NCBI RefSeq assembly: GCF_000284315.1
Contig: NC_017094.1
Span: forward strand, 186,001 to 250,000
Source: Leptospirillum ferrooxidans C2-3
GTDB taxonomy: Bacteria; Nitrospirota; Leptospirillia; Leptospirillales; Leptospirillaceae
Length of the DNA stretch: 64,000 nucleotides
Reading direction: 5' to 3'
Position numbers and translations under genes: made by a program. Positions 23,785 through 25,708 of the stretch are shown here, piece by piece. A model generated the notes under the pieces. It did no database searches, was not told the DNA's origin, and saw only the letters and a program-made list of their open reading frames with translations. Position 1 is the stretch's first letter. Each line of letters starts with the position of its first letter.

Positions 23785-23819
23785 AAAACAGGGTCCCCAT
23801 CCTATGAATGGGAACCCTG
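23785..23819 (-). terminator. Terminator after the 43-aa membrane protein gene
   Basis: CAGGGTCCCCAT (23789-23800) pairs with ATGGGAACCCTG (23808-23819), 11 of 12 positions complementary, loop of 7 bases. On the minus strand it is followed by TTTTC. It lies 11 bases past the small ORF's stop. Confidence 0.85.
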
Positions 23820-23829
23820 CTTCGATCAA

Positions 23830-23961
23830 TCAGAAGGTTCCGATACCACCGATAAGGGGAGCCTGAAATTTCTCGAAAATCACAAAAAGAAGAACAGGGA
23901 AAACGGTAATAAAGGCAAAAAGGACCATTGGGGCTGCACCAACTGATGCTTGTTTGTTCAT
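23830..23961 (-). CDS. 43-aa single-span membrane protein under sigma-54-type control
   Basis: Short ORF of 43 codons plus TGA. Residues 1-9 are polar (MNKQASVGA), residues about 10-30 form one strongly hydrophobic helix with two Pro (FAFITVFPVLLFVIFEKF), and the end is glycine-rich (LIGGIGTF). AAGGAG lies 8 bases before ATG. The gene has its own terminator and a candidate -24/-12 promoter about 95 bases upstream, next to the gene of a sigma-54 activator. The complete set of signals makes it a real gene. I recognise no family; it could be a small subunit of a membrane complex or a stress peptide. Confidence 0.75.
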   Translation of the reverse strand: MNKQASVGAAPMVLFAFITVFPVLLFVIFEKFQAPLIGGIGTF

Positions 23962-24054
23962 TGTCCGGCTCCTTTTAAAAACCCGCTAGGGCTTCCATTA
24001 TGAATGGTTTTGATGTGGTACCAATCCTGTGCGGATGGTTACGAAAGTGGTTAA

Positions 24055-24069
24055 GCAAGCGGTATGCCC
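24055..24069 (-). promoter_or_regulatory. Sigma-54-type (-24/-12) promoter
   Basis: On the minus strand the sequence is GGGCATACCGCTTGC. This fits the RpoN consensus TGGCACG-N4-TTGC with exactly 10 bases between the GG at -24 and the GC at -12. It lies about 95 bases upstream of the 43-aa gene and about 100-180 bases downstream of a cluster of inverted repeats, the usual spacing for an enhancer-bound activator. Confidence 0.7.
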
Positions 24070-24169
24070 AGAAATGATGAGGAGAATTTTTGAATTAAGT
24101 TATTGCGGGATAGTATTATTTTTTATAAGGAGAAATTGCGGCTATGTGAATGTTTCTTTCTTGAATCAA

Positions 24170-24238
24170 TGTTGCGAAACAATGTTTCTTCATAGTTTCA
24201 AAAATGAAACGAGTTTTGTTTCATGTTCAATCGTTTCA
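24170..24238. promoter_or_regulatory. Clustered GTTTCA/TGAAAC repeats (candidate upstream activating sites)
   Basis: Within 70 bases lie TGTTGCGAAACA (24170-24181), the perfect palindrome GAAACAATGTTTC (24176-24188), the perfect inverted repeat GTTTCA-AAAA-TGAAAC (24195-24210) and two more GTTTCA copies (24218-24223 and 24233-24238). The last part overlaps the 3' coding end of the activator gene. This resembles enhancer sites for a Fis-type HTH regulator. Confidence 0.65.
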
Positions 24239-25568
24239 TATGACGCCAAAGCGTAATTCTGCTGATTCCTAGAATAAACGCTGCTGCTTCGATCTTCCCG
24301 TTTGAAGAGCGAAGGGCTTTTTCAATTCTGCGACGTTCAAACAGTTCCGGGTCAAGAGAATCTTCGTAATAGGGATGGGTTTCCTCATGGATTTTATCTG
24401 TCTGTGGATAGAACCCGGTGGACCCCTTTTGTACGGACTCCGGCAGGTCCGAAAGTTCTATGGGCCTATGTGGATCGGAAACGGCCAGGACAGACTCTAC
24501 CAAATGTTTCAACTCCCTTATGTTTCCGGGAAAGTGATAAGAGGAAAGGGCCTGCATGGCTTCTGATGAAAATGAAGATGAGGAACTCCTGTTTTGTTTT
24601 TGAAAGATCGAACGGAAATGTTCGACAAGAATGGGGAGGTCTTCGGTTCGTTTCCTGAGGGGAGGAATCTGGAGGGAGAGTCCATTCAGGCGATAGAAAA
24701 GGTCCGGTCTCATCCGTCCTTCCCGAAGAAGCTTTTCAGGGTCCTCGTTTGTTGCGGCAATGATCCTTGTCGAGATGGCTTGGGACTGGTTCGAACCCAT
24801 GGGCTCAAAGCTGCCATCTTCCAGAAATCGCAATAATCGCGTCTGGACAGCAGGGGGAATATTCTCAATTTCATCAATAAAGAGTGTGCCGCCATGCGCT
24901 CGGGAAAGTCTCCCGCTCTGGGAAGAAACAGCTCCGGTAAAGGCGCCCCTCTGGTGGCCGAAAAGTGCGTCTTCCACCAGGGTCTCCGGAATGACAGAAA
25001 GATCAAGTGCGACAAAGGGGCCATGAGATCTGCGGCTTCTTTCATGGATCAGACGGGCGAGGCATTCTTTGCCAGTTCCTGTTTCTCCAATAAGTAGCAC
25101 CGGGATTTCGGTTTTTGCGATACGTGTGAGTTTTTCCAGAAAGGGTTCTGCCCAGTCTCTGGATGCGACAAAAGTATGCTGTTGGTTTTTCGGGAGGGAG
25201 TCATGCAATAAGGGTTGGAACGATTTGAGGAGAAGTGGATAGCCGCTCAGATCGGAGCTGATCCTTTCCGTATTGATGCTGATATTGCCAAATGTTGGCT
25301 CAAGACATGGTTGGGGAATCCCCCGTTCCGATAATGGATTGGAAAAGAAATGGGATATTTTCTGGCAGCTCCCGGAACAAATCTTCCCCTCCAGGGAGTC
25401 CGGACATAGAGAACCGATGCTTTCGGTTGTCAGTCCCAACGACTGCGAGGCAGAATCGGATATCCATGCAATCCGGAACAGATGGTCGATCAACACCATG
25501 GGAGAATTGGTGGCTTTTGAGATCGGTTCCATGATGGCGTTCAGGTTGATTTTGGATTGGGGTGCCAT
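24198..25568 (-). CDS. Sigma-54-dependent transcriptional activator (NtrC family)
   Basis: 456 aa from ATG 25568. A PAS-like N-terminal sensor (about 20-75) contains three cysteines at 55, 64 and 68 (spacing C-x8-C-x3-C). The AAA+ domain (about 135-365) has Walker A GETGTGKE, the sigma-54-contacting GAFTGA loop, LFIDEIENIP (Walker B) and PLRKRTEDLP. A Fis-type HTH ends the protein (IEAAAFILGISRITLWRHM). There is no receiver domain, so it probably senses a signal directly; the cysteines hint at metal or redox sensing (inference). ATG 25568 has GGAG 7-8 bases upstream; ATG 25598 has no clear ribosome site. tRNA-Ser(CGA) ends 50 bases upstream on the same strand. Confidence 0.92.
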   Translation of the reverse strand: MAPQSKINLNAIMEPISKATNSPMVLIDHLFRIAWISDSASQSLGLTTESIGSLCPDSLEGKICSGSCQKISHFFSNPLSERGIPQPCLEPTFGNISINTERISSDLSGYPLLLKSFQPLLHDSLPKNQQHTFVASRDWAEPFLEKLTRIAKTEIPVLLIGETGTGKECLARLIHERSRRSHGPFVALDLSVIPETLVEDALFGHQRGAFTGAVSSQSGRLSRAHGGTLFIDEIENIPPAVQTRLLRFLEDGSFEPMGSNQSQAISTRIIAATNEDPEKLLREGRMRPDLFYRLNGLSLQIPPLRKRTEDLPILVEHFRSIFQKQNRSSSSSFSSEAMQALSSYHFPGNIRELKHLVESVLAVSDPHRPIELSDLPESVQKGSTGFYPQTDKIHEETHPYYEDSLDPELFERRRIEKALRSSNGKIEAAAFILGISRITLWRHMKRLNMKQNSFHF

Positions 25569-25618
25569 TCTCCCACTCCTGTTCTGTTTTTCAGACATAT
25601 GGGGATTTCCCGGACGGG

Positions 25619-25708
25619 TGGCGGAGAGAGAGGGATTTGAACCCCCGCTGGAGTTCCCCCCAGAGTTGATTTCGAGTCAACCGCCTTCAGCCTCTCGGCC
25701 ATCTCTCC
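25619..25708 (-). tRNA. tRNA-Ser (CGA)
   Basis: 90 nt with encoded CCA and discriminator G. Acceptor GGAGAGA pairs with the 3' end; anticodon stem GTTGA/TCAAC with loop CTCGAAA gives anticodon CGA (reads UCG). A long variable arm is present, as in all serine tRNAs. Confidence 0.96.

Follow-up and report, generated by a model that had tools for sequence, protein, structure and literature searches.

A membrane microprotein of Leptospirillum ferrooxidans under a probable one-component sigma-54 switch

A 1.8-kb block on the minus strand of the window (the whole stretch of 64,000 nucleotides from L. ferrooxidans C2-3 that was analysed) probably encodes a membrane microprotein together with a one-component sigma-54 switch that controls it and that may operate within a membrane-adaptation response. 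Downstream of a tRNA gene, the block runs from an activator gene through a cluster of repeats, a -24/-12 site and a 43-amino-acid ORF to a terminator, and all elements of the block read in one direction within 1.8 kb, as had been predicted from the sequence. Comparison among relatives provides good support for the regulatory part of this reading, namely the predicted activator, enhancer, sigma-54 promoter and translated microprotein, and a function of the microprotein as an accessory subunit within the membrane-adaptation response is weakly favoured. No published description of this locus was found, literature searches on Leptospirillum and sigma-54 having yielded general transcriptomes. The genome (G000) is a single complete contig of 2,559,538 bp. 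The Leptospirillum family comprises iron-oxidising acid-mine bacteria. The features of the locus are as follows:

25622-25708: tRNA gene upstream of the activator; the sole Rfam match passing threshold at the locus
24198-25568, minus: sigma-54 enhancer-binding activator (Pfam/NCBIfam matches, GAFTGA, Walker A)
25215-25538, minus: predicted PAS sensor domain (alignment of 16 orthologues; AlphaFold model and Foldseek)
24420-25148, minus: AAA+ sigma-54 interaction domain and lid, with GAFTGA at 24930-24947
24228-24347, minus: Fis-type HTH GISRITLWRHMKRL (PF02954, 39.9 bits, cut-off 22)
24195-24210, minus: putative enhancer site 1 GTTTCATTTTTGAAAC, whose sequence overlaps the stop codon of the activator gene
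24176-24188, minus: inner inverted repeat GAAACATTGTTTC, with a TGAAAC-N3-GTTTCA counterpart in G071 and G061
24152-24167, minus: putative enhancer site 2 GATTCAAGAAAGAAAC, with one mismatch, 43 bp past site 1
24055-24069, minus: -24/-12 promoter GGGCATACCGCTTGC, the top score of the upstream region
23969-23974, minus: ribosome-binding site AAGGAG; GGAG precedes the ORF in 13 of 13 genomes
23830-23961, minus: 43-aa single-TM microprotein MNKQASVGAAPMVLFAFITVFPVLLFVIFEKFQAPLIGGIGTF (conserved ORF, purifying selection)
23785-23823, minus: intrinsic terminator with an 18-bp stem and a T tail (fold z = -7.66)

The activator and its predicted PAS sensor

Pfam domain matches and a motif check verified an NtrC-type activator with GAFTGA and a Fis HTH. 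The protein scores 199 bits against Sigma54_activat (PF00158) and also matches the AAA lid and HTH_8 families, with the Walker A motif GETGTGKE at residues 171-178 and GAFTGA at residues 218-223. No receiver domain was matched in the Pfam scan, again as predicted, and a PAS fold is found there instead. The longest ORF starts at the ATG at 25598 and encodes 466 aa, and a start at the ATG at 25568 would give 456 aa; the latter is favoured because of the AGGAG that precedes it and the alignment of MAPQSK/MTPQSK with relatives. The activator stays below every NCBIfam equivalog cut-off shown (NtrC, NorR, PspF and RtcR), scoring for example 236.6 against the PspF model with its cut-off of 443.55, and by that test it is therefore none of these four proteins.

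PspF is a receiver-less sigma-54 activator that controls small membrane proteins, has no sensor domain at its N-terminus and is restrained by PspA. The activator described here resembles it in the missing receiver and in a small membrane protein as its predicted target, but differs from it by its PAS domain. The architecture of PAS, AAA+ and Fis is common to PAS-type one-component sigma-54 activators, from which this group is set apart by a fourth invariant cysteine and by the adjoining microprotein.

The cysteine-containing, PAS-like sensor of the original prediction was corroborated by alignment and by structural modelling. In the N-terminal 145 residues examined, 14 positions are invariant among 16 activator orthologues and four of these are cysteines (C65, C74, C78 and C98 in the 466-aa numbering). 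The top Foldseek PDB matches of the AlphaFold model (pLDDT 73) are PpsR, BvgS, E. coli DOS/DosP and FixL, and all 13 matches at E <= 0.001 are PAS-containing proteins; a sequence-only Pfam scan returned no PAS match in the sensor. A second Leptospirillum-family activator has a C-x8-C-x3-C core as well but not the fourth cysteine, and sensor matches above 120 bits are restricted to the Leptospirillum family. From its conserved cysteines and modelled fold, this predicted cytosolic PAS domain would most likely sense redox, oxygen or a metal cluster. A second activator paralogue with a four-cysteine PAS was observed in G019:C8 (L134 6351-7748), where it precedes TTTGGCAAGAAGCTTGCTTT and a 229-aa protein that matches no Pfam family; it adjoins a multicopper oxidase/cytochrome c cluster of the same type as the one beside the activator-peptide pair of G010.

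Conservation of the pair, the enhancer and the promoter

The activator-small ORF pair was searched across Nitrospirota. The peptide is encoded once per genome in 13 of the 21 family genomes, distributed over four genera, and in each of the 13 an activator orthologue lies directly upstream in the same direction. It was not found beyond the Leptospirillum family in a phylum search and a contig scan, matches being obtained only from Leptospirillum and acid-mine Nitrospirae. Weak phylum matches above approximately E 0.02 were dismissed as relatives of the peptide, most of them lying in long or interrupted frames. The gene order tadA, activator, peptide, mazG is found in this genus and in G037, the pair is inverted relative to tadA in the g3 genomes, and in G010 it is located away from tadA beside the aforementioned oxidase/cytochrome cluster. 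As the pair is kept while neighbouring genes vary, it travels as a unit. Six peptide-less g3 genomes are also without an activator orthologue (these assemblies are incomplete), and in the g5 genomes G078 and G095 the activator still adjoins mazG and the peptide, promoter and enhancer are all absent.

The repeats, originally described as GTTTCA/TGAAAC, are present on the minus strand and are better written as GTTTC-N6-GAAAC. An exact copy is located at the activator stop codon in 11 of the 13 genomes with the pair, and a second copy (exact or with one mismatch) follows 42-43 bp further on in seven genomes and 32 bp further on in G010. These spacings are close to whole helical turns, like those of paired enhancers. 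The alternative pattern TGTTTC-N(0-4)-GAAACA has the wrong spacing and yielded no site at the locus.

The -24/-12 promoter with its 10-base GG-GC spacing was also recovered, approximately 140 bp beyond the enhancer sites at the activator stop codon. It meets GG-N10-GC in a TGGCAC/TTGC context, which makes it a sigma-54 promoter by sequence match, and its score was reached by none of 500 dinucleotide shuffles. In the 11 enhancer-bearing genomes the best -24/-12 match is found 77-100 bp upstream of the ORF, with shuffle p values of at most 0.004 in ten genomes and 0.098 in G037. The original prediction had been staked on conservation of the ORF and the -24/-12 site in relatives; both are conserved. 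RpoN is encoded in this genome and in most relatives. Beside the normal rpoN gene, a weak second match to the RpoN DNA-binding domain (36.9 bits) was noted at G000:C1:575954-576445.

The sister genomes G074 and G028 (L041, L042) have lost both the enhancer and the -24/-12 site from the activator-peptide intergenic region, which now contains a sigma-70-like TTGnnn-17-TATAAT with a longer spacer. Such a joint loss is what a functional link between the two elements predicts. It could also be read as a sign that repeats and -24/-12 site are coincidental and that the ORF is transcribed by sigma-70, and one sigma-70-like match, at chance level, does lie upstream in this genome. However, the position of the enhancer and the -24/-12 site are conserved across genera, and a chance layout is considered extremely unlikely. 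The arrangement is judged to exceed chance because four genera have the pair, the enhancer and the promoter in common. The lineages without the promoter, without the peptide or without both constitute natural experiments.

The microprotein and its proposed role

The predicted 43-codon membrane ORF was found together with its AAGGAG and the terminator that follows it, and its product has a mean hydropathy of 2.7 over residues 11-29. The peptides share F, P, L, F-E-K, G, G and F as invariant residues, the tail having the form G-x-G-x-F. No computable comparison gave an omega above 0.27, and pairwise comparison of five g3 genomes (G092, G051, G098, G056 and G066) gave 0-1 nonsynonymous versus 4-14 synonymous changes. 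This dominance of synonymous changes among relatives indicates that the ORF is coding and under purifying selection. No curated family in Pfam or NCBIfam and no PDB entry gave a convincing match, and by sequence comparison the protein represents a previously unclassified microprotein family. Sarcolamban matches in Pfam (3 of 10 microproteins, best E 9e-4) were judged probably to reflect TM composition only. A GC hairpin with a T run, terminator-like in appearance, is located directly before the ribosome-binding site (23977-23992, minus strand), with similar structures in G071 and G061; it was rejected as an attenuator because leader folding is no better than that of shuffles.

The nearest described design is found in Pseudomonas and Azotobacter, where the sigma-54 activator gene cbrB is followed by its own short target, the separate gene crcZ, whose sigma-54 promoter is directly activated by CbrB (PMC8871633). 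This arrangement is syntenic across its family, and CbrB has other targets (PMC8871633). CbrB is a phosphorylated response regulator, whereas the activator described here is without a receiver and would be a one-component PAS sensor. The shared architecture might indicate that the transcript functions mainly as a regulatory sRNA, comparable to the CrcZ that follows cbrB, and that the ORF is incidental. Against this stand the prevalence of synonymous changes, the conserved ribosome-binding site, the absence of any Rfam family but tRNA above threshold and a leader that folds no better than shuffles, and a predominantly RNA function is thus regarded as very improbable. With crcZ being non-coding and the present target an ORF under purifying selection, the locus would parallel the CbrB-CrcZ design in coding form, the sRNA being replaced by a microprotein.

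Little probability is likewise given to the 43-aa protein being a type I-like membrane toxin or a holin. A small single-TM peptide with a strong terminator of its own would suit such a role, but the gene occurs in one copy per genome and always adjoins the activator, no antitoxin was seen, no match was obtained in phage records or PADLOC, and the soluble tail is strongly conserved. A different comparison is offered by CydX, KdpF and CcoQ, small accessory subunits of membrane complexes with approximately 30-60 residues and one TM helix. The microprotein is like them in size and in its single TM helix; no sequence relationship was found, and its gene, in contrast to theirs, does not share an operon with the genes of a complex. 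Its single-TM form and conserved tail, together with an enhancer type common to a desaturase gene, are the reasons why the accessory-subunit view is favoured.

According to the proposed mechanism, the PAS domain with its four cysteines would control the AAA+ ATPase and the Fis HTH would bind the paired GTTTC-N6-GAAAC sites. The activator oligomer would then open the sigma-54 holoenzyme and give rise to a short, monocistronic message that encodes the 43-aa protein. This protein may be a small subunit of a membrane complex, with an accessory or regulatory role, and its conserved FEK...GxGxF tail would make the contact. It would belong to a broader response of membrane adaptation, one that may extend in many relatives to a desaturase with the same enhancer type. 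An uncharacterised microprotein family thereby gains a regulatory handle, consisting of an adjacent activator and a defined enhancer and promoter.

Further candidate targets of the activator

The notion of a dedicated activator with one tiny target was only partly upheld. Position and co-conservation tie the activator to the adjacent promoter, but the description as self-contained was overstated, and the closed circuit did not survive comparison with relatives: the activator persists without the peptide in G078 and G095, and enhancer and -24/-12 site also precede a desaturase gene in about ten relatives. This gene encodes a fatty-acid desaturase paralogue (PF03405), and GTTTC-N6-GAAAC (exact or with one mismatch) is located approximately 85-135 bp upstream of its -24/-12 site in G089, G056, G019, G028, G044, G086, G078, G051, G066 and G037 (L162, L163, L167-L174). 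In G044, G086 and G089 the desaturase enhancer is present and this activator is absent, so that another activator may read the motif; a second activator, whose HTH (GIGRSTLWRKL) is related, is a candidate by its sequence. Neither desaturase gene of G000 has the enhancer.

The expectation of a single target was also called into question within the same genome. Seven exact copies of GTTTC-N6-GAAAC exist in the 2.56-Mb G000, five of them inside long ORFs and only two intergenic, and the second intergenic copy is located where the promoter would lie for another single-TM membrane protein of 43 aa, likewise conserved (MKRISDSGGVAFTYVSVIGTLVALVIVFGHFYAVANHTPIGGL, microprotein 2), whose gene is flanked by RNase III and a TusA-like gene. 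This palindrome (G000:C1:2466625-2466640; with the ORF, G000:C1:2466625-2466893; L077 3026-3294) overlaps a promoter-like sequence, TTGACA-17-TACGTT. It is kept in G071 and G061, and microprotein 2 is present without the exact palindrome in G010 and G095. A sigma-54 promoter at microprotein 2 was discarded, the -24/-12-like match in G061 falling inside the coding sequence.

These observations bear on the question whether the activator mainly controls other genes, such as the desaturase and the second microprotein, with the 43-aa gene being an adjacent target by chance. The g5 activators without a peptide, the G078 desaturase with its enhancer and -24/-12 site and the second intergenic site in this genome, G071 and G061 favour such a regulon, whereas the desaturase genes of G000 without enhancer, the mere two of seven exact sites that are intergenic and the desaturase enhancers in three genomes without the activator speak against it. 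This reading is taken seriously and given somewhat less than an even chance. Under the preferred reading of a switch for the adjacent microprotein, the activator probably has further targets as well, and the predicted circuit is thus not fully self-contained. Sigma-54 control of membrane composition, through microproteins and the desaturase, is suggested for these acidophiles.

The position of the palindrome over the -10 region of the microprotein 2 promoter suggests repression. A reciprocal switch, in which one PAS activator would turn microprotein 1 on via sigma-54 and microprotein 2 off via the palindrome at the sigma-70-like -10 region, is conceivable and rather unlikely; if true, two 43-residue proteins would be exchanged in some membrane complex. 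A further sequence was observed in G028:C36 (L222 1349-1470), where GTTTCTCCGATGAAAC is followed downstream by ATGGCACAGCGATTGCTT and then by a gene with a signal-peptide-like start.
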